This document shows, piece after piece, positions 194-15,536 of a stretch of DNA of 64,000 nucleotides. The position numbers were made by a program, and so were the translations under genes. The number at the start of each line of letters is the position of its first letter. The stretch's first letter is position 1. The stretch is taken from NCBI RefSeq assembly GCF_003014575.1, contig NZ_PYGF01000011.1, forward strand, positions 1-64,000, given 5' to 3'. The notes beneath the pieces were generated by a model that saw only the letters and a list, made by a program, of their open reading frames with translations, ran no database searches and was not told the origin of the DNA. This DNA is from Cecembia rubra. Lineage in GTDB: Bacteria; Bacteroidota; Bacteroidia; Cytophagales; Cyclobacteriaceae.

Positions 194-613
194 CTATTTC
201 AATTTATCTTCCAAGTCCTTTATGATTCGGTCTTTCAGGGAAATAATCCTTTCTTTTTCGTTGAGTTGCCTTTCAAGGGTAGCAATCACAAGTTTTAATG
301 AATCTACTATTTCTTGGTGTTGATCTTTTTCTATAAAGCCATACGGTGAAGAATCTTCTTCAAGAAGTGATTTTTTTTCCTCATTGACCGACGTATTTAA
401 TAGCATTTCTCCTTTGCCTGTCATCAACCAAATGGGGTTAACCTCAGGATAATGCGAAACAAATAACTCCACCCATTTGGTTTGAATGTCTTTATCCCTT
501 CCTATAGCTTTTGAGATTGTGCCATTTCCTGCCCCTATTTTTTGTTCTATTTTCCGAATACTTAGTCTGCATTTGCTAGCAAACTCTCCAATTCTGTCAA
601 TAATAGTCGACAT
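194..613 (-). CDS. Phage/element-type HTH repressor-like protein with coiled-coil tail
   Basis: This 139-aa protein has an N-terminal helix-turn-helix of the XRE/lambda-repressor type (about residues 1-50, with the segment IGAGNGTISKAIGRDKDI as likely recognition part). It is followed by NPIWLMTGKGEML (about 58-70), a segment typical of prophage and ICE repressors in Bacteroidota. Residues 100-139 are a charged helical stretch that probably forms a coiled coil. No LexA-like peptidase domain is present. The ATG at 613 is preferred over an in-frame upstream start because MSTIIDRIGEF is where homologues of this type begin. It probably regulates a resident mobile element, but the regulated genes are not obvious here. 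Confidence 0.72.
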   Translation of the reverse strand: MSTIIDRIGEFASKCRLSIRKIEQKIGAGNGTISKAIGRDKDIQTKWVELFVSHYPEVNPIWLMTGKGEMLLNTSVNEEKKSLLEEDSSPYGFIEKDQHQEIVDSLKLVIATLERQLNEKERIISLKDRIIKDLEDKLK

Positions 614-782
614 GGTCAATAAAATTCTAAATTTAATTTCATTTTTTAGATTAAAATCTATATATTTCAAATATCATTACTCAATATAGATAAATAAAGA
701 CGGATAACAATCATATCAATTAAATGAAGGGCTTCAATAAATTCAAGCATCTATAATTATTTTCAACTTATTCTCAATAACT

Positions 783-1034
783 ATGTGTCCTCCTGTATTT
801 ATTATCAACAATCAATTCGTTAACCCAAAATTTGGTTCAACCAACAATCATACTGTAGAAGAAGCAAGGGAATTGTTAAAGTTAGTTCTCAGAAAATGGG
901 CGGAGAACCATGCGCAAATCTTTTCACTCCTAAACGAAGAGTGGGATGATGAAGAAGCCCAAGTGCAAGAACTTTTGAGGTTAAAAAAAGAGGCTGAAAA
1001 AATGCATGCTTTGGTAAAGGATAAAATCAAATGA
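783..1034 (+). CDS. Small orphan protein, 83 aa
   Basis: The protein is not recognised. It starts at ATG 783, which is separated by about 170 bp of AT-rich DNA from the divergent repressor gene. The first 25 residues are polar; from about residue 24 the protein is strongly helical and charged (EEARELLKLVLRKW, then acidic EEWDDEEAQ and a Lys/Glu-rich end). No membrane segment or signal peptide is seen. The position opposite a repressor suggests a mobile-element accessory gene. It could also be a chance ORF, but its amphipathic composition argues for a real gene. Confidence 0.5.
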   Translation: MCPPVFIINNQFVNPKFGSTNNHTVEEARELLKLVLRKWAENHAQIFSLLNEEWDDEEAQVQELLRLKKEAEKMHALVKDKIK

Positions 1035-1206: not shown

Positions 1207-1231
1207 TTAAAAAAAACACCGTTACCGGTAT
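1207..1231 (-). terminator. Terminator-like hairpin behind the tRNA relic
   Basis: Read on the minus strand the sequence is ATACCG-GTAA-CGGTGT followed by a run of eight T. This gives a 6-bp stem with one G-U pair. It is the diverged counterpart of the terminator at 1336-1370, because the sequences GGATAC.GG.AACGGT align in both copies. Confidence 0.55.
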
Positions 1232-1240
1232 CCTTCGTAG

Positions 1241-1331
1241 TAGCTGGAACACCCGCCGGACTGTACCAATCGGTATGGGCGGGGGACTCGAACTGTATCC
1301 GCGGTGGCGGATATGAGCCCTCCATGGCATT
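1241..1331 (-). pseudogene. Degenerate tRNA-fMet copy with D-arm deletion and hairpin insertion
   Basis: On the minus strand this segment aligns with the intact initiator tRNA at 6145-6217. ATGGAG is followed directly by GGCTCATA, so about 16 nt covering the D arm are missing. Then come a diverged anticodon/variable part, the T-loop block ACAGTTCGAGTCC, a 32-nt insert (1252-1283) and the 3' acceptor block TGTTCCAGCTACT. The insert is itself a hairpin, with outer arms CCCGCC and GGCGGG and an inner TACC/GGTA stem. The segment is GC-rich in an AT-rich region. It cannot fold as a normal tRNA, so a relic is the best call; a structured RNA is an alternative. Confidence 0.55.
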
Positions 1332-1335
1332 GATG

Positions 1336-1370
1336 AAAAACAAAAAAGGATACCGTTTCCAGTATCCTTT
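1336..1370 (-). terminator. Terminator displaced from the initiator tRNA
   Basis: On the minus strand AAAGGATAC, a short loop and GTATCCTTT form a 9-bp hairpin followed by T-rich sequence. It lies immediately 3' of the left 15-bp attachment repeat. In the empty site it would therefore have followed the tRNA-fMet gene directly. Confidence 0.7.
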
Positions 1371-1372
1371 GC

Positions 1373-1387
1373 AGTAGCGGGAACAGG
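1373..1387. repeat. attL: 15-bp copy of the tRNA-fMet 3' end
   Basis: AGTAGCGGGAACAGG is identical to 6143-6157, where 13 of its bases belong to the mature 3' end of the initiator tRNA gene. The next bases also agree except for one (GCT against ACT). This is the expected signature of tyrosine-recombinase integration into a tRNA 3' end. Confidence 0.8.
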
Positions 1388-1501
1388 GCTAAACACCCCG
1401 TTTTTTAAACTAACTTTATTTAATTTAAATACATTGAAAATCAGTTTTATATGAATTTTACTAATTAAGTAAGGATAAAAGAAATAAGAGTAAATTAAAT
1501 A

Positions 1502-1525
1502 AAAGTGTCCCCCAAACTGTCCCCC
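1502..1525 (+). repeat. 24-bp direct repeat, left copy (putative integrase arm site)
   Basis: This is a perfect copy of 6077-6100. It contains two TGTCCCCC octamers whose starts are 12 bp apart. It lies 114 bp inside the left attachment repeat and just upstream of the integrase promoter region. Role as an arm-type binding site of the integrase is inferred from position. Confidence 0.7.
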
Positions 1526-1572
1526 GATTTTCTTTTGTGTATATTTGGGTATCCAATCAAAAGACAGAAATC

Positions 1573-2868
1573 ATGGCAAAATTTAACTTTTACCTGAGGG
1601 AAAAGAAAAAGGATAGCGAAACCCCAATTTTATTATTTATCAGTTTCAATGGTCAAAGAGTAAAATACCCAACAGGTAAGACTATCCATCCCAAATTTTG
1701 GAATGAAGAAACCCAGCAAGCGAGACAGGTTAAAGACTTTCCAACGGCAAAGATTTTTAACAGCAACCTGAAATTTATTCAGGATACGGCTTTTAAAATT
1801 TTTGAGGATTTGACTTTTAGACTGGAAAGAAATCCTTTCCCGACTGAAATAAAAACAGAACTTGACAGGGAATTAAAAGACCTCCACCAAAACACCTCCA
1901 CAGACCCCGAAAATAAGCCCACATTCATGGGGTTATTCAAAAGGTTTATCCATGAATCCGAACAGGGTTTAAGGCTTACAGCAAGCGGGAAAAGGTTTGA
2001 TAAAAGGTCTATCCAAAAATACAATACAGTCTATGATAAATTGGAACAGTTCGGGAAAAGGTATCATTTGACCTTTGAAACCATTGACCAAAATTTTTAC
2101 ACCAAGTTTGTCAATTACCTAAACAAGGAAAAGTATTCCCTAAACAATGTTGGAAAGTACATACAGGTAATCAAGACCTTTTTGACCTATGCCACAGAAA
2201 ACGGCTACAATACTAACATGTTTTTTCAATCAAGGCAGTTTAAAGCCCACAAAGTAGCGGGTTTTTCCATTTACCTAAATGAAAATGAAGTGAATGACCT
2301 TTACGAACTGGATTTAAGCAGTACACCCCATTTGGAGCGGGTTAGAGACCTTTTTATAGTGGGTTGCTGGACTGGATTAAGATTTTCAGATTTTACCAAC
2401 ATACAGCCCAAAAACATTGAAGGGGATTTTTTGAAAATCACTACATACAAAACAGGTGAAAAGGTAATTATCCCCATTCACAGGACTGTAAAAGAAATCA
2501 TGGCAAAATACAAAGACAGGTATCCAAACAGTTTGCCCCCAGCCATAGCAAACCAAAAAATGAATGCCTACCTAAAGGACATTGCAAAACAGGTGGACAG
2601 CCTTAAAACAGGGGTGGAGGTTGAAGGAATAAAGGGAGGCTTGAAAGTGAATACCATTAAGCAAAAATGGGAACTTGTTACCACCCACACCGCCCGCCGA
2701 TCCTTTGCCACCAACGTTTACAAAAGTGGTTTTCCCGCAATCAGTTTAATGAAAATCACAGGCCATAAGACTGAAAAGGCATTTTTACTATACATCAAAG
2801 TAACACCTGAGGAAAACGCCCAAAAGCTTTTGGAACATTGGAATAAATCGGTTTTAAAGGTTAGCTAA
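1573..2868 (+). CDS. Tyrosine recombinase (integrase) of the element
   Basis: This 431-aa protein catalyses site-specific strand exchange between the element and the tRNA-fMet 3' end. Residues 1-85 form a Bacteroidota-type arm-binding domain (MAKFNFYLREKK onward), about 110-220 the SAM-like core-binding domain, and 230-431 the catalytic domain. Catalytic residues are visible: Arg270 (TGLRFSDF), Lys293 (TYKTGEK), His372 and Arg375 (THTARRSF), His398 (TGHKT) and the nucleophile Tyr407 (LLYIKV). The ATG at 1573 is preferred to the in-frame start at 1537, because that longer version would overlap the -7-like box TATATTTG at 1540-1547. The gene is intact and transcribed inward. The next gene begins one base after its stop codon. 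Confidence 0.93.
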   Translation: MAKFNFYLREKKKDSETPILLFISFNGQRVKYPTGKTIHPKFWNEETQQARQVKDFPTAKIFNSNLKFIQDTAFKIFEDLTFRLERNPFPTEIKTELDRELKDLHQNTSTDPENKPTFMGLFKRFIHESEQGLRLTASGKRFDKRSIQKYNTVYDKLEQFGKRYHLTFETIDQNFYTKFVNYLNKEKYSLNNVGKYIQVIKTFLTYATENGYNTNMFFQSRQFKAHKVAGFSIYLNENEVNDLYELDLSSTPHLERVRDLFIVGCWTGLRFSDFTNIQPKNIEGDFLKITTYKTGEKVIIPIHRTVKEIMAKYKDRYPNSLPPAIANQKMNAYLKDIAKQVDSLKTGVEVEGIKGGLKVNTIKQKWELVTTHTARRSFATNVYKSGFPAISLMKITGHKTEKAFLLYIKVTPEENAQKLLEHWNKSVLKVS

Positions 2869-2869
2869 A

Positions 2870-3643
2870 ATGGAACAGGAATTTTTGACCCTTAGGAGGA
2901 TTGATTTTGAATTTTCAATCAACCTTAAAGATTTAGAAAAGACCAAATTCAAGTATTCAATTGGCACAAAATCAACCGATGAAAAAGAACAGCCCGAAAT
3001 CATTTTTTGGGATTGGGGGACTTTAAAGAAAAGCTGGTTTTATCAAAAAGGCCATTATTGGAAAATTGAAACTGAAAAACCAATAATCAAATCAAGACAA
3101 GATTTGGGAATTGTGGAGGTGAAAAATAAGGTTTTCAAGATCATGGCTGGATGGATAGGTAAACAGGAAAATGATTTTAAAACCTCAATGAAAAGAATTA
3201 AGCATGTTCTAAAAGGTGGGAACAAACCGATCCCAGCCCAATGGACAGACATTTTTTTTGATTGGGCAAATACCCAAAATCAAGATGAAATTTCTTTGAA
3301 TCAATTTCCCGAAATAACCCCTGAGGTAATTAATGATTGGGTTGAAAACAACTTACCTCCACATAATGAAATCATTAAAAACCATTCTCAAAAAACAAGG
3401 GTTGACTTAGAACCAAAATACAGGTTTTACATTATGAAGGAATTGGGAATGATTGACCCAAAGGGCATCTTTTTTAATGATAAATTATCCCTGAATGAAA
3501 GGGCTGATTTGTTATCAAAAGTTTTAGGATACAATTCAAGGGATTGCAAAGATTTATTGAATCGAAAAACAGAATTTGACCCTAAAAAGAAATCGGAAAT
3601 TGATGACTTTTTGAGCGAATTAAAAAAAAAAAGGAAAATGTGA
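2870..3643 (+). CDS. Element orphan protein, 257 aa, coupled to the integrase
   Basis: No family is recognised. The ATG directly follows the integrase stop codon, so the two are probably translated as a unit. The protein is soluble, Lys/Asp/Trp-rich and lacks signal or membrane segments. Its first half is mainly beta-type sequence with aromatic patches (IIFWDWGTLKKSWFYQKGHYWK, shown in part as DWGTLKKSWFYQKG). The C-terminal third is helical (FYIMKELGMIDPKGIFF, then ADLLSKVLGYNSRDCKDLL) and ends in a Lys-rich tail. Similar genes beside integrases in Bacteroidota are usually uncharacterised. A role in element maintenance or host interaction is only a guess. Confidence 0.75.
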   Translation: MEQEFLTLRRIDFEFSINLKDLEKTKFKYSIGTKSTDEKEQPEIIFWDWGTLKKSWFYQKGHYWKIETEKPIIKSRQDLGIVEVKNKVFKIMAGWIGKQENDFKTSMKRIKHVLKGGNKPIPAQWTDIFFDWANTQNQDEISLNQFPEITPEVINDWVENNLPPHNEIIKNHSQKTRVDLEPKYRFYIMKELGMIDPKGIFFNDKLSLNERADLLSKVLGYNSRDCKDLLNRKTEFDPKKKSEIDDFLSELKKKRKM

Positions 3644-3717
3644 AAAAATAGTGGGGTTTTTACCATGCCCCCACTTTAACCCCCCAACTATAATTGTCCA
3701 AACTAAACAAAGTTATC

Positions 3718-4005
3718 ATGGACAATTTAATCTTATCAACTTACAGCCCCGAGGAACTGACAGGGATCATCAATACAGCCGTGAAAGAGGCCGTAAAATC
3801 AATTCAGACCGCCCCACAGGAAAAGACAGGAGAAAAGCTTTTATCAAGGAAAGAAACGGCTGAAAAGCTTAAAATTTCGCTTGTCACCCTCAATGACTGG
3901 ACAAAAAGGGGAATGCTAACATCCTACATTATTGGAGGCCGTGTTTTGTACAAAGAAAGTGAAATTGAAAAATCACTAAATCAAGTCAAGACTGTAAAAT
4001 TCTAA
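3718..4005 (+). CDS. Excisionase-like helix-turn-helix protein
   Basis: This 95-aa protein has a MerR/AlpA-type winged HTH in its C-terminal half: LLSRKETAEKLKISLVTLND followed by WTKRGML and IGGRVLYKESEIEKSL. This is the standard helix_turn_helix_17 layout used by excisionases and Bacteroidota element regulators. The N-terminal 40 residues are helical and may mediate dimerisation. The ATG at 3718 is preferred to an in-frame TTG at 3694. As the only small Xis-like protein in the element it is the likely directionality factor for the integrase. It could alternatively activate the rep genes downstream. Confidence 0.8.
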   Translation: MDNLILSTYSPEELTGIINTAVKEAVKSIQTAPQEKTGEKLLSRKETAEKLKISLVTLNDWTKRGMLTSYIIGGRVLYKESEIEKSLNQVKTVKF

Positions 4006-4009
4006 TCCG

Positions 4010-4180
4010 ATGACAGCCCAAAAACAAACGGCACTAATCGGAACGAATCCAATTAATGCCATTCCCGCTTATGGTATCCAATCAAAAGCAGTATTCAAAT
4101 GTACTCAATTTTTGGAATACCTATCCCAGCCTAATCTTGAAATCTTACTTTTTGCAGGGGTGGAGGCTTGCAACCTATGA
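4010..4180 (+). CDS. Small element protein, 56 aa
   Basis: The frame from ATG 4010 to TGA 4178-4180 encodes 56 residues (MTAQKQTALIGTNPINAIPA at the start, LEILLFAGVEACNL at the end). It begins 5 bp after the excisionase-like gene. Its stop overlaps the start of the next gene as ATGA, so translational coupling is likely on both sides. No family is recognised. The ordered spacing supports a real gene despite its small size. Confidence 0.6.
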   Translation: MTAQKQTALIGTNPINAIPAYGIQSKAVFKCTQFLEYLSQPNLEILLFAGVEACNL

Positions 4181-4488
4181 AAGGGAAAAGAAATACCTCC
4201 GAAACTCAGTATCTATCATGGAAAGCCATTCAAAGAGGGCAATTAATCCCCAATGTTGCTGAAAGGGTTTATTCCTTTTTGATGGAAAACAGGCCAAATG
4301 AATACAGCGCAAAGGAACTGGAATCATTGATAGGTATAGAGGACACCACCCTAAGCCAGCCCCTTGTTAGGCTTCAAAAAACCAATCAAGTAGGTTTTGT
4401 AAAAGGACACCATGAGTTTTCAAAAAACAAGGTGAAAAAATACTATGCCAAAGACATGAATGATGACCCGCAACAAAAATTATTCTGA
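4177..4488 (+). CDS. Winged-helix DNA-binding protein of the element
   Basis: This 103-aa protein has a winged-helix core at about residues 25-85: VAERVYSFLMENRPNEYSAK, then ELESLIGIEDTTLSQPLVRL and KTNQVGFVKG. This helix-recognition helix-wing order resembles MarR/ArsR-type or replication-control proteins. The ATG at 4177 overlaps the preceding stop by 4 bp, and an in-frame TTG at 4168 is less likely. It sits just before the rep gene, so it may be a copy-number or transcription regulator of rep. That function is inferred from context only. Confidence 0.68.
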   Translation: MKGKRNTSETQYLSWKAIQRGQLIPNVAERVYSFLMENRPNEYSAKELESLIGIEDTTLSQPLVRLQKTNQVGFVKGHHEFSKNKVKKYYAKDMNDDPQQKLF

Positions 4489-4489
4489 C

Positions 4490-4561
4490 ATGGCAAGTAA
4501 GAAAGGAATGCTTTATAGTAAGGTGCTTTTATTGATAAAAAAAGTCAATTGCCGTGTATGA
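4490..4561 (+). CDS. Putative 23-aa leader peptide overlapping the rep start
   Basis: An ATG at 4490, one base after the previous stop codon, opens a 23-codon frame (MASKKGMLYSKVLLLIKKVN at the start). It ends at TGA 4559-4561 and overlaps the GTG start of rep at 4554 by 8 bp. Short leaders overlapping the replication initiator are known to couple and tune Rep translation in plasmids. Here the coupling is inferred from the overlap. Confidence 0.4.
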   Translation: MASKKGMLYSKVLLLIKKVNCRV

Positions 4562-5489
4562 TACAGTTCATTTATGGATACCAAAAGACCAAGTTTGTGG
4601 AATTGATTTGGACAGGGTATCAAATCATTTAAAATCATTCACAGAACATCAAAAAAATGATGGTGAAAGGTACAAAAGTGGGCAATTGGGGAACAGCTTT
4701 AAGGTTTATATTTCAGAACAGGGAATTTCTTTGAAAGGTAGTTTGGCAAAGTTTCTTTTGTCGGACAATTTCCAAACCTTAAAAAGGTCTGAAAGTAAGA
4801 CAGCCTTTGAAAAATTGGGGGATGAACTTGGTTTGCTTGTAAATCGGGCTAAAGTTAGCAGGATTGACTTTGCCCATAATTTCGAAATGAAATACAGGCC
4901 TGAAATTTATTACCCCTATTTAGGGGATTGTCAATACTTCAAACGGATTGCCCAACCAAATTCAGTCTATTGGACTAATAAAAACAGGACTAAGCTAGTT
5001 TACAATAAAGTACTAGAGGCCAAAACGAAAGGGGAAAGAATTTCAGGAGATTGGAAACAAAAAAATGTTCTGAGGTATGAAATGAGATATACCAAAAGGC
5101 TATGTGAGAACCTAAGACAACCTGAAATCTTTGCAAGTACCTTGTCAGATGAGAGGTTTTATAAGCGAATGGTAATCCATTGGATACAGGAATACAATTC
5201 TATTCATAAACTCAATGAAATCAATTTAAACTTTGATGCGATGAACAGCCCGAAAGATTTTATCAAACAATTGGCATTAATGAAAATCAAGGAAATTGGA
5301 CAGCAAAAAGTACTGGAAATGGTGGAGGAAATGAGAGAGAAAGGAACATTTGACAAACCTGAATACTATTCAAGGTTGAAAAAAGAAATAAGGGAAATTT
5401 GTAAAATGCCTGAACAAACCAAATCAACCGAGTTGATTTTAGAACTGGATGAGAAAGTAAGACAGGTAATAAGTTCCCCTTATGGCTAA
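4554..5489 (+). CDS. Rolling-circle-type replication initiator protein (gpII/X or Rep_trans-like)
   Basis: This 311-aa protein begins MYDTVHLWIPK, like the N-termini of phage gene II/X and Bacteroidota replication proteins. It then shows the order found in that HUH-related superfamily: RIDFAHNFEM (about 103-112), a TKLVYNKVLEAK block with a Tyr-x-Lys pair (about 145-156) and LRYEMRYTKRL (about 170-180). The rest is helical, with a long charged helix near 235-260. GTG at 4554 is the only reasonable start, because an in-frame stop lies 15 bp upstream. It would nick and replicate the excised circle. The family assignment is by motif order only; catalytic Tyr and metal-binding His residues cannot be assigned with certainty. 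Confidence 0.68.
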   Translation: MYDTVHLWIPKDQVCGIDLDRVSNHLKSFTEHQKNDGERYKSGQLGNSFKVYISEQGISLKGSLAKFLLSDNFQTLKRSESKTAFEKLGDELGLLVNRAKVSRIDFAHNFEMKYRPEIYYPYLGDCQYFKRIAQPNSVYWTNKNRTKLVYNKVLEAKTKGERISGDWKQKNVLRYEMRYTKRLCENLRQPEIFASTLSDERFYKRMVIHWIQEYNSIHKLNEINLNFDAMNSPKDFIKQLALMKIKEIGQQKVLEMVEEMREKGTFDKPEYYSRLKKEIREICKMPEQTKSTELILELDEKVRQVISSPYG

Positions 5490-5544
5490 TCTTGCAAAGA
5501 ATGTGGAGGCATTAGATCAGTATTTGGAATTTCGTAATTTGTAA
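5482..5544 (+). CDS. Possible 20-aa ORF after rep
   Basis: ATG 5482 overlaps the rep stop by 8 bp and the frame ends at TAA 5542-5544 (MANLAKNVEALDQYLEFRNL). It could be a re-initiation peptide. There is no family support. Confidence 0.2.
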   Translation: MANLAKNVEALDQYLEFRNL

Positions 5545-5562
5545 AAAACAAAAATTTACAAA
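5538..5562. promoter_or_regulatory. Inverted repeat before the DUF5681-like gene
   Basis: TTTGTAAA (5538-5545) and TTTACAAA (5555-5562) are perfect inverted 8-mers. They lie just before the ATG at 5566 and could be an operator. They are AT-rich, so chance is possible. Confidence 0.35.
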
Positions 5563-5565
5563 ACC

Positions 5566-5868
5566 ATGGGTTTAAAGAAAGGACAAACCAACAATCCTAA
5601 TGGGAGACCTAAAGGCTCAAAAAACAAAGCTAATGAAGCCATAAGGGATAAAATCCAATGTTTGTTTGAAGGAAATTTTGACAAAATCCAAACTGACATT
5701 GAAAAGCTTGACCCTAAGGATAGATTGAAATTTTTGACTGATTTAATGCCTTATTTAGTGCCAAAGCTTCAAAGTACCACATACACGAATGAAATTGATT
5801 GGGAAAACATCCCAGAGGATAAACTTGACCAACTGTTAAACAGGTATTCCGATGACAAAGACAGCTAA
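5566..5868 (+). CDS. DUF5681-like protein of the element, 100 aa
   Basis: The N-terminus KKGQTNNPNGRPKGSKNKAN matches the basic G-R-P-K-G-S-x-N-K signature of DUF5681. Proteins with this motif are often encoded beside phage terminases and in mobile elements. The rest is acidic and helical (LDPKDRLKFLTDLMPYLVPK, then an Asp/Glu-rich end). The basic head suggests DNA or RNA binding. No terminase gene is present in this element, which makes its role unclear. The stop overlaps the next gene by 17 bp. Confidence 0.72.
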   Translation: MGLKKGQTNNPNGRPKGSKNKANEAIRDKIQCLFEGNFDKIQTDIEKLDPKDRLKFLTDLMPYLVPKLQSTTYTNEIDWENIPEDKLDQLLNRYSDDKDS

Positions 5869-6073
5869 AATAAAATTATTGATTGCTTTTAAACAGGGTA
5901 AATTAACGGTGGAGGAACTGAAAGAATGCCTGACATTTGATAGCATCCCCCTTTTTATACTGAATGACAGAACCCCAAAAAATGAAACCGAAAAAAGGCA
6001 AATTGACCTATTCCAAAAGATTGGGGTTGAAATCATTTTGGTAAACATTGTTTCAAAAAACCAATCAATCTGA
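5852..6073 (+). CDS. Small orphan protein of the element, 73 aa
   Basis: The gene overlaps the end of the DUF5681-like gene by 17 bp. It begins MTKTAKIKLLIAFKQGKLTV and contains a helical KQGKLTVEELKECL segment, followed by a strand-rich half (IPLFILNDRT, IGVEIILVNIVSK). No known family is recognised. It is the last gene before the right-hand direct repeat, and its stop lies only 3 bp from the start of that repeat. Confidence 0.58.
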   Translation: MTKTAKIKLLIAFKQGKLTVEELKECLTFDSIPLFILNDRTPKNETEKRQIDLFQKIGVEIILVNIVSKNQSI

Positions 6074-6076
6074 TGC

Positions 6077-6100
6077 AAAGTGTCCCCCAAACTGTCCCCC
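6077..6100 (+). repeat. 24-bp direct repeat, right copy (putative integrase arm site)
   Basis: This is identical to 1502-1525, in the same orientation, and contains two TGTCCCCC octamers. It lies 42 bp inside the right attachment repeat and directly beside a terminator. It is probably the second arm of the recombination site. Confidence 0.7.
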
Positions 6101-6139
6101 AAAAAGAAAAAACCCCAAATACTTAACGTATAAGGGGTT
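6101..6139 (-). terminator. Element-borne terminator for tRNA-fMet
   Basis: On the minus strand AACCCC (6139-6134) pairs with GGGGTT (6116-6111) and is followed by a T run. It sits 5 nt after the tRNA 3' end. The element thus supplies its own terminator in place of the one displaced to 1336-1370. Confidence 0.75.
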
Positions 6140-6144
6140 CTAAG

Positions 6145-6217
<73 letters not shown>

Positions 6218-6274
6218 ATATATTATTAATCAAATGATTTTCTAAATCTGACAGCCTTTGCTGAATTCGTGGTA

Positions 6275-6306
6275 CAAAAGTAGGGTGTTTTTGGATATAA
6301 AACAAA
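6275..6306 (-). promoter_or_regulatory. Promoter of tRNA-fMet
   Basis: On the minus strand TTTG (6306-6303), a 20-nt spacer and TACTTTTG (6282-6275) match the Bacteroidota -33/-7 consensus. The box ends 57 nt before the tRNA 5' end. Confidence 0.75.
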
Positions 6307-6477
6307 TCTGGGTTGAATATAATTTTTTTGAAAATGTACTGTTTTGTTGGTATGGGCTGAAAATTAGGTATTTATTGAAAATATTTTTTTGGCTTCACAA
6401 AACTATTAAAATCTGTTTTAAGGCCATTTTTTCAGTTGTTTTCCAAAGTTTATTTGGTTTGTTTTCATCTTTAAGCA

Positions 6478-6506
6478 TTGTCTGTGGAAAAAATCAAGTA
6501 CCTTTG
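6478..6506 (+). promoter_or_regulatory. Promoter of era-der
   Basis: TTG (6478-6480), an 18-nt spacer and TACCTTTG (6499-6506) match the Bacteroidota consensus. They end 18 nt before the era ATG. This supports the short era start rather than the longer in-frame ORF from 6258. Confidence 0.72.
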
Positions 6507-6524
6507 CACAAAAAAATTGTAGTC

Positions 6525-7415
6525 ATGACCGATAAAATACACAAAGCAGGATTCGTCAACATCATTGGCAAACCCAATGTGGGCAAATCCACGCTTATGA
6601 ATGTGTTGATCGGTGAGAGACTTTCGATCATCTCCTCCAAAGCGCAGACCACAAGGCACCGCATCATGGGAATCATCAATGACGAGGACTATCAGATTGT
6701 GTTTTCTGATACCCCGGGCATGTTGAAACCCAAATATGAGCTTCATAAAAACATGATGGGCTTTGTGCATATGGCTCTGGAGGATGCAGATGTGATCCTT
6801 TTCGTAACCGATCTGTTTGAAACCGACGCGGAAATAGAAGACGTAATTGAAAAGATCAACCAATCAGGTGTTCCTGTACTCTTGGTCATCAACAAAATTG
6901 ACCTGTCCAAGGAGAATCAATTGGAAGAAGTGACAGCTTATTGGACGCAGCGTATCAAAGCCGATACGGTGATCCCAATCTCTGCAACCGAAAGTTTCAA
7001 CACCCAACGCATTCTTCAGGAAATCCTGGACAGGCTTCCCGAACATCCCCCATTTTATGATAAAGAAGAACTCACTGACAGGCCTGAGCGTTTCTTCGCC
7101 TCTGAGATAGTCCGTGAAAAAATCTTCCTCAATTACAAAAAAGAAATCCCTTACAGCACCGAAGTAGCGATCGAGGATTTTTATGAGGAGGAGAAAATCA
7201 TCCGGATCCGTGCAGTGATCTATGTGGAACGCAATAGCCAAAAGGGTATCATCATCGGGGAAGGAGGCAAAGCCCTTAAGCGGGTAGGAATCCAGTCCAG
7301 GGAAGAAATGGAGAAGTTTTTCGGAAAGAAAATCTTTTTGGAAACTTTCGTGAAAGTGGCGGATGATTGGAGAAAAGACAAAAACAAGTTGAAAAAATTT
7401 GGTTACGACCAATAA
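6525..7415 (+). CDS. era: GTPase Era
   Basis: This 296-aa essential GTPase binds 16S rRNA and assists 30S subunit maturation. The GTPase domain has G1 GKPNVGKST (15-23), G3 DTPG (62-65) and G4 NKID (123-126), followed by the SAT-type G5 region. The C-terminal KH RNA-binding domain contains GIIIGEGGKALKRVG (about 237-251). The start at 6525 gives the normal family length. The same frame is open upstream to 6258, but that part covers the promoter and has no homology-like features. It forms an operon with der, 12 bp downstream. Confidence 0.97.
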   Translation: MTDKIHKAGFVNIIGKPNVGKSTLMNVLIGERLSIISSKAQTTRHRIMGIINDEDYQIVFSDTPGMLKPKYELHKNMMGFVHMALEDADVILFVTDLFETDAEIEDVIEKINQSGVPVLLVINKIDLSKENQLEEVTAYWTQRIKADTVIPISATESFNTQRILQEILDRLPEHPPFYDKEELTDRPERFFASEIVREKIFLNYKKEIPYSTEVAIEDFYEEEKIIRIRAVIYVERNSQKGIIIGEGGKALKRVGIQSREEMEKFFGKKIFLETFVKVADDWRKDKNKLKKFGYDQ

Positions 7416-7427
7416 GACAAGTGTACA

Positions 7428-8741
7428 ATGGCAAATATAGTGGCAATAGTAGGTAGGCCCAACGTGGGGAAATCTACCTTTTTCAATAGATTGATTGAAG
7501 AGAGAAAAGCAATCGAGGACAACGTGTCCGGTGTAACCCGTGACCGTCATTATGGACATGCCCAATGGGGAGGTAAGTTTTTCTCAGTAGTTGATACCGG
7601 GGGTTATGTTACGGGTTCTGATGATGTGTTTGAGGCGGAAATCCGCAAGCAGGTAAAACTGGCCATTGAAGAGGCCAGTGTGATTCTTTTTGTAGTGGAT
7701 TGTTTGGACGGTCTGACAGACCTGGACAAAGAATTTGCCAATGAGCTCCGCAGTACCAAAAAACCGATATTTATCGTAGCCAACAAGGCAGATAGCCCAG
7801 AAAAGGCTCTTTTATCAGCTGAATTTTATGGTTTAGGTTTAGGGGATAATGAAGTGTTTCCTATCGCAGCTGTTAGTGGAAGCGGAACAGGAGACCTGTT
7901 GGATGAAGTCATCAAGCATTTCCCGGATTCAGGTGAAGAAGATCCGGATGAGGGAATCCCAAAAATAGCCATCTTGGGAAGACCAAATGTAGGAAAATCC
8001 TCATTTTTGAACGCCCTACTGGGTAAAGAGAGATTAATCGTTACCGATGAGGCTGGTACCACCAGGGATGCTATCCATACCAGATACAAACTTTACGGCA
8101 AAGATTTTATCATTACCGATACGGCGGGAATCCGAAAGAAGGCCAAGGTCAAGGAAGATATTGAATTCTATTCCGTCATGCGTTCATTGAGAACCCTAGA
8201 GGACTCCGATGTACTGATCATCATGGTGGACGCAACCAGAGGATTTGAATCCCAGGACATGAACCTCATCAATCTGGGCATCAAAAATAACAAGGGCATT
8301 ATGATCATGGTCAATAAATGGGATTTGATTGAAAAAGATCACAAGACCATGGATACTATCAAGAAAGACATGCTGGAGAAGTTGGGTGAAAACAGATGGA
8401 TTCCCATCATCTTTACCTCAGTGCTTACCAAACAGCGGATTTTCCAGGCCATTGAACTGGCAGTGAGGGTATTTGAAAACAAAACCAGAAAAGTGCCTAC
8501 CTCCAAACTCAATGAGCTGATTCTTCCGGAAATTGAAAATTATCCTCCTCCGGCAAACAAAGGGAAGTACATTAAAATCAAATATATTACCCAATTACCG
8601 ACCAAAAACCCGGTTTTTGCGTTCTTCTGTAACTTGCCACAATATATTAAAGAGCCTTACACTAGGTTTCTGGAGAACAGGCTGAGGGAAAACTTTGATT
8701 TTGAGGGAGTACCGATAAAAATTACTTACAAGAAAAAGTAA
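7428..8741 (+). CDS. der: Ribosome-associated double GTPase Der (EngA)
   Basis: This 437-aa protein has two tandem GTPase domains and a C-terminal KH-like domain, the unique Der layout required for 50S assembly. The first P-loop is GRPNVGKST (9-17) with DTGGY as G3. The second is GRPNVGKSS (about 184-192) with DTAGI and NKWD. The KH-like domain covers about 350-437 and ends in the usual basic tail. It follows era after 12 bp and is probably cotranscribed. Nothing unusual is seen. Confidence 0.97.
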
Positions 8742-8760
8742 AAAAAATCAACGTAACCCC

Positions 8761-8790
8761 TTGACAAGAATAAAATTCTGTTTAATTTTG
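8761..8790 (+). promoter_or_regulatory. Promoter of the acidic lipoprotein gene
   Basis: TTG (8761-8763), a 19-nt spacer and TAATTTTG (8783-8790) fit the Bacteroidota consensus closely. They lie 31 nt before the ATG at 8822. Confidence 0.75.
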
Positions 8791-8821
8791 CACGCTTAAT
8801 TTAAGAAACAAACCAAACATC

Positions 8822-9010
8822 ATGAAAAAGGTATTTGCATTATTCGCTATCACTGGTATGTTGTTCGCATCTGCTTGCGGAAACAAAGAAGTATCTGAAG
8901 AAGCTACTGAAGAAATCGAAGTGATCATCGAAGAAACTGAAGAAGTTACAGACGAGACTGAAGAAGTTATCGAGGAAACTGAAGAAGTTGAAGAAGTAGT
9001 TGAAGGTTAA
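8822..9010 (+). CDS. Small, extremely Glu-rich lipoprotein
   Basis: The 62-aa precursor has a lipoprotein signal peptide (MKKVFALFAITGMLFASACG) with the lipobox ASAC and acylated Cys19. The mature part of about 44 residues is mostly Glu, Val and Thr in an irregular EETEEV repeat with few basic residues (Lys21 only), so it is a strongly negative, probably disordered lipid-anchored peptide. It has its own consensus promoter and a strong terminator, which suggests a highly expressed monocistronic gene. No family is recognised. A role in cation binding or surface charge is a guess. Confidence 0.82.
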   Translation: MKKVFALFAITGMLFASACGNKEVSEEATEEIEVIIEETEEVTDETEEVIEETEEVEEVVEG

Positions 9011-9031
9011 TCCTAACTTCTTAAAAAAATT

Positions 9032-9066
9032 GAGGCTGTCCATAATTGGTCAGCCTCTTTTTTTTT
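9032..9066 (+). terminator. Intrinsic terminator after the acidic lipoprotein gene
   Basis: GAGGCTG and CAGCCTC form a stem around TCCATAATTGGT, followed by a run of nine T. Confidence 0.88.
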
Positions 9067-9080
9067 AATTTGTGGCAGGA

Positions 9081-9704
9081 ATGAGCCATCAAGAAGAACA
9101 GTTTTTAAATGCTTTCAAGAAACACCTGCCTGAAGAGGCTGTGATGTATTGTTATCAGCTTTGGAAGCAACAGCCTTTCAATTTCTTTATTACTAAAAGC
9201 AGGGCTTCGAAGTTGGGAGATTTCCGATACCGACAGGACAGGAAAATTCAGACCATAACGATCAATTTTAACCTTAGCTCCTATCAGTTTTTGATCACCT
9301 ATATCCATGAGGTAGCCCATTACAGGGCTTTTGAGAAATATGGACTAAGAATCAAGCCCCATGGTGCTGAATGGAAGAAGACCTTTCGGGAATTGATGCT
9401 ACCTGTCCTTTCAGATAAAGTATTTCCCAAAGATATTTACCTGGCATTATTGCTACATATGAAAAACCCTAAGGCCAGTACCGGAGGAGATCTATTTTTG
9501 GCTAAAACATTGAAGACTTATGATGCCAAATCCACAACCGATACTTCACTTTTGCTGGATTTGTCATTGGGGGAACTTTTTATCCTTCAAGGTAGAAAAT
9601 TCAGAAAAGACCATGTGAGAAGGACAAGGGTCCTTTGCGAAGAGATTTCTACAGGAAAAAAGTACCTCATCTCTGCCCATGCTGAAGTTAAAAAAGCATA
9701 TTAA
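9081..9704 (+). CDS. SprT-like zinc metalloprotease-family protein
   Basis: This 207-aa protein carries the SprT zinc signature HEVAH (near residue 78) with a third His in KPHGAEWKKTF, the arrangement found in SprT/Spartan-like domains. The C-terminal part is beta-rich (SLGELFILQGRKFRKDHVRR) and replaces the zinc ribbon of classical SprT. An alternative GTG start lies 9 bp upstream. It converges with scpB, and the last 4 bp of the two genes overlap. The substrate is unknown; DNA-protein crosslink proteolysis is known only for distant relatives. Confidence 0.85.
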   Translation: MSHQEEQFLNAFKKHLPEEAVMYCYQLWKQQPFNFFITKSRASKLGDFRYRQDRKIQTITINFNLSSYQFLITYIHEVAHYRAFEKYGLRIKPHGAEWKKTFRELMLPVLSDKVFPKDIYLALLLHMKNPKASTGGDLFLAKTLKTYDAKSTTDTSLLLDLSLGELFILQGRKFRKDHVRRTRVLCEEISTGKKYLISAHAEVKKAY

Positions 9705-10285
9705 GAAAGCTGGTCTTTTTCTTCTCCTATTTGATTGGTCTCAGAACTAAAGTCCTTTGGTTGTGGAAGATCCCCAAGGTTGTTGATACCAAAATACTCC
9801 ATGAACTTGTCGCTGGTTCCATACAACATGGGTTTCCCCACACTGTCAGATTTGCCTTTGATTACTATCAGCTCTTTTTCCAATAATTTTTGGATAGAAT
9901 AATCGCAGCTTACACCCCGGATCTGTTCGACTTCAGTTTTGGTTACAGGCTGTTTATAGGCAATTATAGAAAGTGTCTCCAGTTGGGCAGTGGAAAGCCT
10001 TTTCTGTGACTGCTGCCTCAAAAGTATAGAAATACTGCTCTGAAAAGCTGGCTTGGTCAAAAACTGATATCCTCCTCCCAAATGTTCCAGTGCAAATGAA
10101 AAATCGTCATGACCGTATTTTTCCTGAAGCGCTAAAATTGCATCGAGAATATGCTCTTTTGGCACCTCAGATTCAAACATCTCCGTCAGGCATTTTTGGA
10201 TCTCATCCAGACCTAACGGAGACGGTGAACAGAAAATTAAAGCTTCAATGTGTTTGTGTAGAAATTCCAATTTATTTCTTTGCAA
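9701..10285 (-). CDS. scpB: Segregation and condensation protein ScpB
   Basis: This 194-aa kleisin-associated protein of the SMC-ScpA-ScpB condensin is built of two winged-helix domains. The N-terminal part (LEFLHKHIEALIFCSPSPL) and the conserved central LETLSIIAYKQPVTKTEVEQ, IRGVSCDYSIQKLL and GKPMLYGTS motifs identify the family. The acidic C-terminal tail is variable. Its start overlaps the end of the DksA-like gene by 14 bp, so the two are cotranscribed. scpA is not nearby. Confidence 0.94.
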   Translation of the reverse strand: MQRNKLEFLHKHIEALIFCSPSPLGLDEIQKCLTEMFESEVPKEHILDAILALQEKYGHDDFSFALEHLGGGYQFLTKPAFQSSISILLRQQSQKRLSTAQLETLSIIAYKQPVTKTEVEQIRGVSCDYSIQKLLEKELIVIKGKSDSVGKPMLYGTSDKFMEYFGINNLGDLPQPKDFSSETNQIGEEKDQLS

Positions 10286-10655
10286 GTTTAGCTTCTATGG
10301 AATGCATGGTATGGGGCACAGCCTTTAAGCGATCTTTGGCGATCAATTTGCCGGTATCTACACAAACGCCATAAGTACCATTTTTGATCCTGATGAGCGC
10401 ATTCTCCAAGTTGATGATAAATTTCTGCTGTCTTGCAGCTAACTGGCTCAAACTCTCCCTTTCCAGTGTATCTGCACCGTCTTCCAAAAGCTTAGAGGTT
10501 GAGGCCGTAAAGTCTGTTCCGCTATCGTTTTTCTTACTAAGTGTTTCTTTAAGTGAAGTGAGTTCTTGTTTGGCAACAGCCAGTTTTTGAAGGATAATTT
10601 CTTCGAATTCCTTTAATTCCTCTGGGGAATAAGCAGTTTTTTCTTCTTGGCTCAT
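10272..10655 (-). CDS. TraR/DksA-family protein with incomplete zinc finger
   Basis: This 127-aa protein has the coiled-coil plus zinc-finger-like layout of TraR/DksA proteins that act on RNA polymerase. The coiled coil covers about 10-90. The C-terminal YGVCVDTGKLIAKDRLKAVP keeps the finger shape but only one of the four cysteines, which is common in Bacteroidota members. The ATG at 10655 is chosen over an upstream in-frame start because MSQEEK begins the conserved part. It is the first gene of a pair with scpB. Zinc binding is unlikely, so any DksA-like function would be structural. Confidence 0.88.
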   Translation of the reverse strand: MSQEEKTAYSPEELKEFEEIILQKLAVAKQELTSLKETLSKKNDSGTDFTASTSKLLEDGADTLERESLSQLAARQQKFIINLENALIRIKNGTYGVCVDTGKLIAKDRLKAVPHTMHSIEAKLAKK

Positions 10656-10740
10656 GACAATAATTTTTAAGGTTAAAATCCTCCAATCCATTCGACTGAT
10701 TGAAAAGTTCCCTAAAATAAGGGTAGCATTTTAATTTGCA

Positions 10741-10773
10741 AAAATAAAAAACCGCCTGGAGAGCGGTTTTTTT
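10741..10773 (-). terminator. Terminator after the 49-aa gene
   Basis: ACCGC and GCGGT pair around CTGGAGA, with A-rich and T-rich flanks on the two sides. It can act in both directions, but its position fits the minus-strand gene at 10777-10926. Confidence 0.72.
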
Positions 10774-10776
10774 CTG

Positions 10777-10926
10777 TTAGCTGATGCTGTTCAATCTTTT
10801 GAGAAGTAATTTTTCATCCAATATTAGCTTATGCTTGATACTTAGATAGCGTTGGATGACTTTAAGATCTTTTCCTTTTTCAATGAAATAGGTTTTCAGG
10901 GTCTGGGTGATCAGGTCTTTGGACAT
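10777..10926 (-). CDS. Small conserved-looking protein, 49 aa
   Basis: The minus-strand frame runs from ATG 10926 to TAA 10777 and reads MSKDLITQTLKTYFIEKGKD at its start. The sequence is helical and basic, with KVIQRYLSIKHKLILDEKLL in the middle. It fills the gap between the lamin-tail gene and the DksA-like gene and is followed at once by a terminator, which supports a real gene. The function is unknown. Confidence 0.6.
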   Translation of the reverse strand: MSKDLITQTLKTYFIEKGKDLKVIQRYLSIKHKLILDEKLLLKRLNSIS

Positions 10927-10994
10927 AGGAATAAGGGTTTAATCATGAGGATGTAGTACAATATACTAAAAATCTGCATATTATGTTTGGTCTG

Positions 10995-13900
10995 TCATAA
11001 ATTTGTTCCGACAACGGCTGTATTTTTAATCCTCATAATTGTTCCGTCCAGGTCATAAATTTCGGCCAAAACAATGTAATGGCCCGGTCTTACTTTTCTT
11101 CCTTGTATGTCTGTTCCATCCCAGAGAAAAAATCCTTCTTCCCCCAATACAGCATTCTGACATATTTCTCTGATTAATGAACCGTTAACAGCATAGATTC
11201 GGATGTTGGCAGTCTTTCCCCCGTTTTCCATTTTATAGCTGATGGTCACAAATGCTGATTGTCCTGGTATGTCAGGTGCAAATACTTTTGGGTGGATGGA
11301 AATTCCTAGTCCTTGATGCCCTTCAAAGGCTTGTGAATTTCTTGTTCCGGGAGTTGCAAATCCTGATGATGCGGAGGCAGATTGCCAGTTGTTAGGATCA
11401 TTCACAGCCTTAAAAGGCGATAACCTTTCCAAAGATACACCCCTCCTTTCTCTTAACAGAGGATGATGCATGCGCTCATGATATGAGAAAGTTTCAATGA
11501 TATCCTCTGTAGGGTTGAGAAGCACCACATTGCCACTGGTAATGGGATAACTTGGCAAACTGCTATATTGGATAAAACTGCTCCTGTTTCCTTTGGGGTA
11601 TTCTTGGTGAAGTTTTTCTGAATCGGTTGTGAAAACCAAAAAACTGTAAGGTTCGATGATAAAATCATCAGAAAAAAGGATCCGCCTATTGGCTATTTGC
11701 TGAGAGCTGTTATGGTTCGCAAGTTTCCAGTCTTTCAGATTGAGGAATTTGTCAGACCTGTTGTACACCTCTACAAATTTTGGTGCATTGACCCTGGCAT
11801 TAAAAAGCACCTCATTGATAACTAAGTCGCCTGCTGTGGCAACGCTTGGTCTGACCACCCAAACTATTTCTCCTTCGCCTATCAAATTGCCAAGGCAATC
11901 CCTCAAATTTTTAAACTTCAGGTTATACTTTTTCCCTTCCTGAAGTTCCTCATTGAACTCTATCCATAACTGATCAGGCGAAGGTCCCGGTGACATCCTT
12001 GAAATTTCCAGCCGGGGAACAACTTCAACAGGAAAGTTAATAGTATTAGGATTGAGGATTTTTGAAAAAGTTAAAAGTACTTGCCTGTTCCCAAGCCAAC
12101 TGCTTTTAACAAATTTTGGACCGCTGAGGTCAGATACGGTGGCGTAAACTGAATTTTTTTTACCGGGTGTTCCTCTTTTCTCATGTTGTGATGATTTAAT
12201 GTTACCTGGTAGATTGCAGGAGAGATAAGGATTGACAATTTCCAGACTAAATCCTCCCTGTGCAAAGGAGCTTCCTCCAAAGGATGCTGTGGTGTAATTG
12301 AGACTATCCAGCACCAGCCCTTGACTGTTTAGGAGCTTTACTTGATCAGCTGAATTGAGAAGGGTAGGCCAGTTGGTCAGGCCCACAACTTCTCCAAAAG
12401 GAGCTAAATCGGATATCCTTGCCCTAGGACATAGTAGCAGATAGGATTTAGGTCCAATTACTGCGGAAGGTAAGGTTGTGGTTCTACGGGAGTTGGCCAG
12501 TTGCAAGCCCCCCAGATAAATACTTTTGTCAGTAGTGTTGTAAAGTTCCACATATTCTACGTTGGGTAGGGGGTTACCTGCCCTTGGAGCAGGCATGACT
12601 TCATTGATGACAATTTCTTTAAAACCTAGTCCTTGACTTATTTCAAATTCAAAAGCAAAGTCTAAGTCTTCGGAATAGTTTCCTGAAAGGTCCACAGCTT
12701 TTTTTACTCTAAGAGTATAGTTCCTGCCATTTTCAAATTCGAAAGGGAAGCTGAGCAAAGCGGAACTATTGTTGTTCTGTAAGATTATTTGGTTGGGATT
12801 ACTTTCATCGATCAGGTAGTTTTCGGGAACCACCATAAAAGCAGGATCAAGTGGCTCCGAAAATACTGCAAGCAATTTATTTCTGTCCACGGGTTGTACT
12901 TGTACCAGTTCAGGAGCTGTCCTGTCCCAAAAGAATTCCCTTTTGGAAGCGTGTATGGGAAATCCCCTTGCACTTTTTCTATGGGGAAGTAAAAGGTTGT
13001 ACACAGGACCTTCTTCAAATGGTACTTTAAAAATCAATTGAATCCTTGAGGAAATGGGAAATTGAACTTCAAAGGATAGCTCTTCTACATCTTCAATTTT
13101 GAAACCATCAGCCAAAACTGAATTGGGGTCAATGTCAATTTCATGTATGATCTCAATTCTGTCCTGCTCTATAAGAAATAGATCATCAATAAAATCACGG
13201 TAGAAAAAGGATCTCCGCATTGGGACTTCCCCGCTATTTAGTTCCTTATCAATTATGCCTTTTGTCTCAAACACCAAAAGTGTGTTCAGGTTAAATTCAT
13301 TCGAAAAAGTCAAAAGGACCTGATATCCGTTTTCCAAAACATCTATGGAGATCGGCGATTGATTTCCAAGAAGAAAATTGCCCGTTTGGCTCACTGATGA
13401 TTCCAAAAATTCCTGGCTGAAACTGACCAGGAGTTGGTCAGGACGGACAATTAATAACGCTCCAATATCGATCTTTGAATTATCAACCTGAACTGTGATG
13501 ATGGGTGTGACAGTCCCATTTTTGTCTCTCAGATTTTCTAATTGGACGGAAAGGATCCCTTTCGGAAATGGTTCATTGGAGTGTAAAAAGAGTAAAGTGT
13601 CAGCGGGAAAAACCAGCTCAATATTATTAGATCCTTGAATCCTGATTTGGGATTGTTCAGGAGGAAAAATGCCTTTATCCAAATGCAATGCCAATCGGTA
13701 TGGATCCATAAGGTAAGCTGACCGTATAGCCACTGGGTCGACAACCTCTTCTCCATTGTAAATCCCGAAGTCATCCATAAAAAACCTGGCCGCCGAACCA
13801 GTTCCTGGCCCATAAAGGACCTGTATTCTTATAAAAACCTTTTCTTCCTCATGGAGAGTAAGCGGTAAAGGGATTTCATATAGTCTGTATTCAGTATTTT

Positions 13901-14333
13901 GGTTGGGAAAACTTGATGCCTCTCCAACAGGCAAAGTATAATCCCATTGCTCAAATCCAGACTTTGAAAAGGATATATTAACTAAAGCTGGTCTAGATCC
14001 GGTTCCATTTTGGCTGGTTTTTGCAAAAAATGCAATTTTTGGGGAAATAAAGTTCTGTGGATGAAAATGCGTATAAATTTCCCCAGCAAAAGAACTTATT
14101 GCCTGCACTCCCAGTGACCTGGAGCCAAACCTTCCTTCTGAATTGGACTGAAATACCCTTGCGGCCGTACTCCTGACTTCATTTGCGGACCAATCCGGTA
14201 AAAACTCCTGAGGATGGTCCACAATCCTAAAACTGCTTTCAAAGTCCTGGACTTGGCCAAAAGCCTTATTTTGGTAAAGCAATACCAGCAAGCCAATAGC
14301 AATGCAAATCTTTTTTAAAAAAACGCCAAACAT
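10995..14333 (-). CDS. Large secreted lamin-tail-domain protein
   Basis: This 1112-aa protein has an N-terminal signal peptide (KICIAIGLLVLLYQNKAFGQ). About 25-190 is a carbohydrate-binding-like beta domain (FFMDDFGIYNG near its end). Several Ig-like segments of the SbsA type follow (about 205-565). Two lamin-tail domains begin EIVINEVMPAP (about 573) and DLVINEVLFN (about 834), each with a VEYVELYN or FVEVYN motif. The last 80 residues resemble a FlgD-like Ig or sorting-type module (FLWDGTDIQGRKVRPGHYIV). Such proteins are common in Bacteroidota and often secreted; the substrate is unknown. It is monocistronic. Confidence 0.88.
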   Translation of the reverse strand: MFGVFLKKICIAIGLLVLLYQNKAFGQVQDFESSFRIVDHPQEFLPDWSANEVRSTAARVFQSNSEGRFGSRSLGVQAISSFAGEIYTHFHPQNFISPKIAFFAKTSQNGTGSRPALVNISFSKSGFEQWDYTLPVGEASSFPNQNTEYRLYEIPLPLTLHEEEKVFIRIQVLYGPGTGSAARFFMDDFGIYNGEEVVDPVAIRSAYLMDPYRLALHLDKGIFPPEQSQIRIQGSNNIELVFPADTLLFLHSNEPFPKGILSVQLENLRDKNGTVTPIITVQVDNSKIDIGALLIVRPDQLLVSFSQEFLESSVSQTGNFLLGNQSPISIDVLENGYQVLLTFSNEFNLNTLLVFETKGIIDKELNSGEVPMRRSFFYRDFIDDLFLIEQDRIEIIHEIDIDPNSVLADGFKIEDVEELSFEVQFPISSRIQLIFKVPFEEGPVYNLLLPHRKSARGFPIHASKREFFWDRTAPELVQVQPVDRNKLLAVFSEPLDPAFMVVPENYLIDESNPNQIILQNNNSSALLSFPFEFENGRNYTLRVKKAVDLSGNYSEDLDFAFEFEISQGLGFKEIVINEVMPAPRAGNPLPNVEYVELYNTTDKSIYLGGLQLANSRRTTTLPSAVIGPKSYLLLCPRARISDLAPFGEVVGLTNWPTLLNSADQVKLLNSQGLVLDSLNYTTASFGGSSFAQGGFSLEIVNPYLSCNLPGNIKSSQHEKRGTPGKKNSVYATVSDLSGPKFVKSSWLGNRQVLLTFSKILNPNTINFPVEVVPRLEISRMSPGPSPDQLWIEFNEELQEGKKYNLKFKNLRDCLGNLIGEGEIVWVVRPSVATAGDLVINEVLFNARVNAPKFVEVYNRSDKFLNLKDWKLANHNSSQQIANRRILFSDDFIIEPYSFLVFTTDSEKLHQEYPKGNRSSFIQYSSLPSYPITSGNVVLLNPTEDIIETFSYHERMHHPLLRERRGVSLERLSPFKAVNDPNNWQSASASSGFATPGTRNSQAFEGHQGLGISIHPKVFAPDIPGQSAFVTISYKMENGGKTANIRIYAVNGSLIREICQNAVLGEEGFFLWDGTDIQGRKVRPGHYIVLAEIYDLDGTIMRIKNTAVVGTNL

Positions 14334-14479
14334 GCTTTTAATTTAAGCATGAGCCATCCGTTATTCGGATTTTATCCGTTTAACCGATTTTTTTTCAAAT
14401 CTTTTCAAAAAAATGACCACCTATTTGAAAATTAAGTAATTAAATGTGTTAAGAGTATCTTTTTTGGGAATTCTTGCCT

Positions 14480-14487
14480 TACCTTTG
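14480..14487 (+). promoter_or_regulatory. -7 box of the asd promoter
   Basis: TACCTTTG matches the Bacteroidota -7 consensus 27 nt before the asd ATG. No well-placed -33 TTTG is visible, so strength is uncertain. Confidence 0.5.
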
Positions 14488-14514
14488 CGGTTCAATTCTA
14501 AAAAAAACAGTATA

Positions 14515-15504: not shown

Positions 15505-15536
15505 ATTGTCAAAATTAGCCCTTTGCAAAGTAAAAC

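Follow-up and report, generated by a model that had tools for sequence, protein, structure and literature searches.

The gene for the initiator tRNA (tRNA-fMet) of Cecembia rubra is occupied by a small element of 4,770 bp, which raises the question of what kind of mobile element this is and how it spreads. The element lies in the window analysed here, a stretch of 64,000 nucleotides of contig NZ_PYGF01000011.1, which begins at the contig end, the visible sequence starting at position 1. It is probably (probability about 0.7) a small integrative tailed-phage satellite. An earlier sequence-only reading had left the choice between a satellite and an integrative plasmid family. The satellite is now preferred and the plasmid less favoured, because the element encodes a DUF5681 protein, which in phages stands in the position of the terminase small subunit (TerS), and because sister elements carry other TerS families.

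The element encodes its own integration/excision and replication genes, tightly packed on one strand in the order integrase (Int), X, excisionase (Xis)-like helix-turn-helix (HTH) protein, short leader open reading frame (ORF), winged HTH, Rep, DUF5681 and a 73-aa ORF. The features are the following, in window coordinates.

1373–1387, plus strand: attL core, a 15-bp copy of the tRNA-fMet 3′ end (AGTAGCGGGAACAGG), from repeat match, empty-site comparison and shuffles
1502–1525, plus strand: left integrase arm-site pair (TGTCCCCC twice, 12-bp pitch), a repeat with a putative role
1548–1563, plus strand: 16-bp motif GGTATCCAATCAAAAG just 5′ of int
1573–2868, plus strand: tyrosine integrase, 431 aa, with Arm-DNA-bind_5, SAM_5 and Phage_integrase domains (Pfam)
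2870–3643, plus strand: variable gene X, 257 aa, adjoining int, without a Pfam match
3718–4005, plus strand: HTH_17/excisionase-family regulator, 95 aa (Pfam and further family-library matches)
4010–4180, plus strand: short leader ORF, 56 aa, from the ORF list, containing the second copy of the 16-bp motif (4073–4088) after the HTH gene
4168–4488, plus strand: putative winged-HTH-like protein, 106 aa, before rep
4554–5489, plus strand: rolling-circle Rep of the Phage_CRI/G2P family, 311 aa (Pfam PF05144)
5566–5868, plus strand: DUF5681 protein, 100 aa, putative TerS (Pfam PF18932, 1.4e-6)
5852–6073, plus strand: 73-aa ORF, with related small ORFs in sister elements
6077–6100, plus strand: right integrase arm-site pair, a repeat with a putative role
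6104–6141, minus strand: predicted intrinsic terminator, carried by the element, that would serve the tRNA gene (T-run; fold energy −15.8 kcal/mol, z −4.8)
6143–6157, plus strand: attR core within the tRNA-fMet 3′ end, from repeat match and empty-site comparison
6144–6217, minus strand: tRNA-fMet, left intact by integration (ARAGORN)

Among the IMG/VR contigs with a DUF5681-like ORF, 63 out of 79 possess an ORF of at least 250 aa that starts no more than 3 kb downstream and in most cases overlaps or directly adjoins the DUF5681-like one. The PHROGs scan matched 42 of these 63 downstream ORFs to phrog_3717, a terminase large subunit (TerL), and the 14 most frequent families were all terminase large subunits. 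Since DUF5681 is located directly 5′ of TerL, the usual TerS position, it is predicted from its place to fill the TerS slot of these phage contigs. None of Pfam, PHROGs and NCBIfam lists DUF5681 as TerS, the PHROGs that match it (15261, 8771, 4114 and 26239) are annotated as unknown, and a single paper in the literature searched, the coverage of which is incomplete, mentions it. Apart from one marginal 57-residue match, TerL of these types could not be detected in 16 DUF5681-positive or element-bearing genomes, so DUF5681 appears to be an orphan in those genomes. As for a resident helper, TerL_ATPase was not found in the genome of C. rubra itself. The virome scaffold MT839454 (4.3 kb) was considered as a free satellite and rejected, as it is a phage fragment with TerS and TerL.

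Sister elements carry other TerS families after Rep, namely Terminase_4 in locus L052 (5.4e-14; phrog_83, 5.4e-18), phrog_309 in L060 (3.2e-13) and phrog_6299 in L062 (4.5e-16). Three unrelated TerS families in one slot would be hard to explain otherwise than by selection for packaging. The same evidence bears on an integrative plasmid-like element that spreads passively, by transformation or generalised transduction, with DUF5681 as its own nucleoid- or partition-type AT-hook protein. The N-terminus of DUF5681 is AT-hook-like, many relatives lack TerS, and no helper is known from the TerL searches of the own genome and the 16 genomes, all of which would suit such an element. It leaves unexplained, however, the synteny of DUF5681 in the TerS position of phages and the other three TerS families that occupy this place in sister elements, and we consider it quite unlikely.

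The search for the DUF5681 family was positive in 23 out of 295 Cyclobacteriaceae genomes. All but two of the matches with E <1e-40 belong to tRNA-adjacent elements of the Int-HTH-replication-DUF5681 type. Of the other two, one is truncated at a contig end; the second, in the same-genus genome G001, has no tRNA next to it and contains an interrupting ORF similar to those of insertion sequences. Most homologues are stand-alone elements of 4.8–10 kb and not parts of phages or of integrative and conjugative elements (ICEs), in agreement with the sequence-only reading, for which confinement to such larger elements would have been unexpected. Replication modules of the DUF5681 elements are the CRI Rep, AAA_25 with a BT4734-like primase, or D5_N/DUF5906 with DUF6371, and a PriCT_2/DUF3987 module was found in a related element without DUF5681. 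The order Int-X-HTH-(Y)-Rep is mostly kept in CRI-Rep elements from other parts of the phylum, and CRI-like Rep and DUF5681 occur together also in L052, L190, L213 and L215.

The HTH profile matches 85 out of 345 Bacteroidia genomes. Among the 18 top-scoring matches outside the family (one of them, L224, is the same element as L052), Int is present just upstream in 17, a CRI-like Rep in eight and DUF5681 in four. A repeat of the tRNA 3′ end was found in seven of these 18 loci, with element sizes of 5.5–9.0 kb, and TerL in none of the 18. From the counts in this sample, TerS is recurrent yet not universal in these elements. The viral contig L208 (IMG/VR 3300039305_000015) possesses the Int-X-HTH module, followed by replication genes and by ORFs resembling TerS and TerL; satellites and prophages therefore have this module in common. 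Cargo genes of the relatives include type I and II methyltransferases (restriction-modification) and an HKD-Snf2 helicase. The 25 commonest Pfam families among 68 sister-element proteins include Rep_1, DUF3987, DUF6371, DUF5681, methylases, Fic and nSTAND. Two sister-element proteins have matches to PHROGs annotated as virion structural.

The Rep of the window element matches PF05144 with 8.5e-18 and 65.3 bits (gathering cut-off 21.7), and the motifs RxD, YxK and LRYE are conserved in its family. A structure model of medium confidence has the staphylococcal rolling-circle initiator RepDE as best Foldseek match (probability 0.98–1.00, E 1.7e-3), and the search of the Rep profile against sequences of solved structures gave nothing significant. 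Rep is Phage_CRI/Rep_trans-like, and a classical HUH motif could not be demonstrated in it. The gpII/X-like Rep of the sequence-only reading holds on the Phage_CRI match, and its further statements, that same-strand, tightly packed genes include integrase, excisionase-like HTH, Rep and DUF5681 and that transfer and capsid genes are absent, agree with the Pfam matches and with the Pfam and PHROGs searches of the window ORFs.

Rep_trans-like initiators can act as relaxases in some ICEs, such as that of ICEBs1, which brings in an integrative mobilizable element (IME), the circle of which is moved by a conjugative system that is already in the cell or newly enters it, with Rep as relaxase or with an unrecognised origin of transfer. 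Small IMEs of the NBU type are frequent in Bacteroidota, where those of Bacteroides integrate into tRNA genes by a tyrosine recombinase, and the Rep of the related element L045 weakly matches the Relaxase profile (1.1e-3). Nevertheless, Pfam detected a relaxase neither in the window proteins nor among the 25 commonest families of the sister elements, orphan TerS-type genes would be unexpected in an IME, and NBUs encode a mobilization protein, none of which was found in the window element. We regard an IME as unlikely.

Phage_CRI is also the G2P replication family of filamentous phages, so single strands made by a G2P-type Rep could be packaged by a filamentous helper, and the element could be an inovirus-like satellite or a decayed relative, as TLC or RS1 of Vibrio, with which it shares a G2P/Cri-type replication protein. 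In contrast to TLC and RS1, it possesses its own tyrosine integrase, a tRNA site and a TerS-like gene, and filamentous helper genes were undetected. It has no coat or Zot gene, Zot is absent from its own genome and from eight of the nine other genomes with this Rep type, and TerS-type genes are genes of tailed phages. A filamentous system is thus very unlikely.

Several observations weigh against a satellite of tailed phages, the reading that we prefer. The similarity of DUF5681 to the phage proteins is mostly in the first 25 residues, although L071–L074 align to residue 74, and its structure model is of low confidence (mean pLDDT 68) and without a PDB match. Many sister elements have no identifiable TerS, including the closest by integrase, that of Belliella. 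Relatives of Rep and Int were absent from the IMG/VR scans, and Rep homologues from the phage and plasmid collections. Packaging, the circular form and the helper phage are all inferred.

The site and the precision of the insertion were established from the tRNA gene and an empty site. ARAGORN predicted a tRNA-Met(CAT), which is taken as initiator because of its three G-C pairs in the anticodon stem and the C1xU72 mismatch; it is located upstream of era and not beside fis. The two copies of the core are perfect repeats; when the left region was Markov-shuffled 5,000 times, no tRNA match exceeded 12 bp, the longest obtained, compared with 15 observed. The tRNA-fMet/era locus of G001 has one core copy: its left flank matches window 1305–1390 (88.5%) and is joined directly to the right flank, which matches 6143–9000 at 90%. 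This locus is the precise empty site, and since it joins both flanks with a single core copy, the element, bounded by the 15-bp cores, was precisely inserted. These results bear out the compact integrative element in the initiator tRNA gene and the perfect 15-bp flanking repeats that had been proposed from the sequence, a single core in a related empty site being what a 15-bp duplication predicts.

Left of attL (1209–1372) there are decayed att-core copies and tRNA-fMet-like sequence that includes the palindrome TCCGCGGTGGCGGA, and the tRNA of Belliella is likewise flanked by palindromic tRNA relics (L053, about 7726 and 14415), which suggests repeated past integrations. The rest of the genome gave no tRNA-fMet-like relics in a pattern search. 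A phage-repressor-like protein (194–670, minus strand) and a small ORF (783–1034, plus strand), both located between the contig end and the element, may be what is left of a different element. A further CRI-Rep element, L017 (G028, 1219–12212), also occupies a tRNA-fMet beside era; it has a distant and oppositely oriented integrase and encodes unknown proteins of 505 and 223 aa.

Near both ends of the element is the 24-bp direct repeat AAAGTGTCCCCCAAACTGTCCCCC, with 24/24 positions identical, and these repeats are probable integrase arm sites. The layout of the ends is common to 12 elements from several genera, this one and 11 relatives. On the left, the tRNA-derived core is followed by about 110 bp, two tandem units of 8–9 bp at a pitch of about 12 bp, and int; on the right are the same arm pair, a terminator-like hairpin and the core. 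Element sizes are between 4.8 and 10 kb, and the sites used are tRNA-fMet, -Met, -Arg, -Thr, -Leu and -Lys. The native terminator of the tRNA is now outside attL, at 1340–1372, and the right-end hairpin is predicted to take over its role. The 16-bp motif is conserved in Belliella and other sister elements and is possibly an operator or leader signal.

The integrase is 91% identical to that of the Belliella kenyensis element, and its start is more likely at ATG 1573 than at GTG 1537, because the integrases of relatives start there. Gene X has weak homologues at the same position in sister elements, and the HTH_17 regulator is 55–71% identical to its counterparts there. Short ORFs comparable to the leader follow the HTH gene in L178, L183, L184 and L053/L015. 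The winged-HTH-like protein has no significant family match in Pfam or PHROGs, and small proteins are found at its position in L052 and L190. At their right end, sister elements have one to four small ORFs in tandem that are related to the 73-aa ORF. No capsid, tail or TerL gene was found among the window ORFs with Pfam and PHROGs.

The genome of C. rubra (G000) harbours a second element of the same family, L178, of 7,475 bp in tRNA-Arg(CCT) (contig C8, about 8550–16041), which has AAA_25 and BT4734-like genes for replication as well as four small paralogues of the orf73 type. It is 99.985% identical to an element in G001 over 6,468 bp, compared with about 90% for the tRNA-fMet flanks of both genomes, a difference that implies recent transfer.

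The element of Belliella kenyensis (L053/L015) is inserted at the same tRNA-fMet core. Between its integrase and that of the window, identity is 94% from residue 44 to the end, but only 65% over the arm domain (1–43); its arm sites are TAGCCTACT, in contrast to the TGTCCCCC of the window element. DNA identity falls to 57–78% only across 1479–1718, which includes the arm sites, the int promoter and the arm-domain codons, compared with 80–88% to the left and mostly 90–100% to the right. The arm domain is closer (70–79%) to integrases whose elements have arms of the TGTCCCCC type. It thus appears that the arm-binding domain and the arm sites were exchanged as one module.

A tyrosine integrase of the element's own type has inserted a presumably circular form precisely into the tRNA-fMet 3′ end at the 15-bp core, with paired candidate arm sites at both ends, and the integrated element restores the tRNA end and supplies a replacement terminator. 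In the remainder of the proposed satellite cycle, after infection or induction by a helper phage, the HTH protein may act as excisionase or activator, and the circle would excise. The CRI-type Rep would start rolling-circle replication and yield concatemers, and the DUF5681 protein, as satellite TerS, would recognise the element DNA and pass it to the helper TerL for packaging. The transduced DNA would then recircularise and integrate in the next host.

Among known satellites, PICMI of Vibrionaceae is similar in several respects. PICMI115 is a 6.1-kb island with int, the int-adjacent gene iolg, alpA and prim, it replicates by rolling circle, and its concatemers are packaged by a virulent phage; co-localised int, alpA and prim are mandatory in PICMI, and fis-adjacent integration is an optional marker (PMC10803314). 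The window element shares the small size, the gene content of int, int-adjacent gene (X in the position of iolg), HTH and replication gene, site-specific integration and the lack of capsid genes, and the defence function of PICMI is comparable to the defence-type cargo in its relatives. Membership fails because PICMI has no terS, replicates with a primase and is inserted beside fis, whereas the window element, in Bacteroidota hosts, has a putative TerS, a CRI-type Rep and the tRNA-fMet site; PICMI is nonetheless the nearest working analogue, with a similar working logic.

PICI/SaPI elements also possess int, a regulator or excisionase, a replication module and a satellite TerS (putative in the window element), without TerL. 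The window element is smaller and belongs to another phylum and another TerS family, and PICI-type pri/rep, Stl and capsid-remodelling genes could not be detected in it with Pfam and PHROGs, which gave no other phage families beside the Phage_CRI Rep. VEIMEs and tycheposons are integrative elements of marine bacteria and proposed phage satellites (PMC11389934); they are likened to the window element by this description.

The literature search, with incomplete coverage, revealed no description of phage satellites in Bacteroidota nor a Bacteroidota member with a CRI Rep, and the novelty of the family is therefore provisional. The Int-X-Xis-like HTH-(Y)-Rep elements with exchangeable TerS may represent phylum-wide, previously unnamed minimal satellites of tailed phages in Bacteroidota, with a filamentous-phage-type initiator, packaging redirected via DUF5681 as a TerS family unrecognised in the libraries searched, arm domain and arm sites swapped as a unit, and defence genes; for this wider proposal we see even chances. 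The phage satellite families that are well characterised stem from a small number of other groups, Vibrionaceae and staphylococci among them, and Bacteroidota are dominant in many communities of sea, soil and gut. If the proposal is true, Bacteroidota would have a phylum-wide satellite lineage of 4.8–10 kb islands, with named and sequenced carriers such as Belliella kenyensis and Cyclobacterium sp. 1_MG-2023, DUF5681 would be assigned a function as TerS, and a filamentous-phage-type replication initiator would be combined with the packaging of tailed phages.

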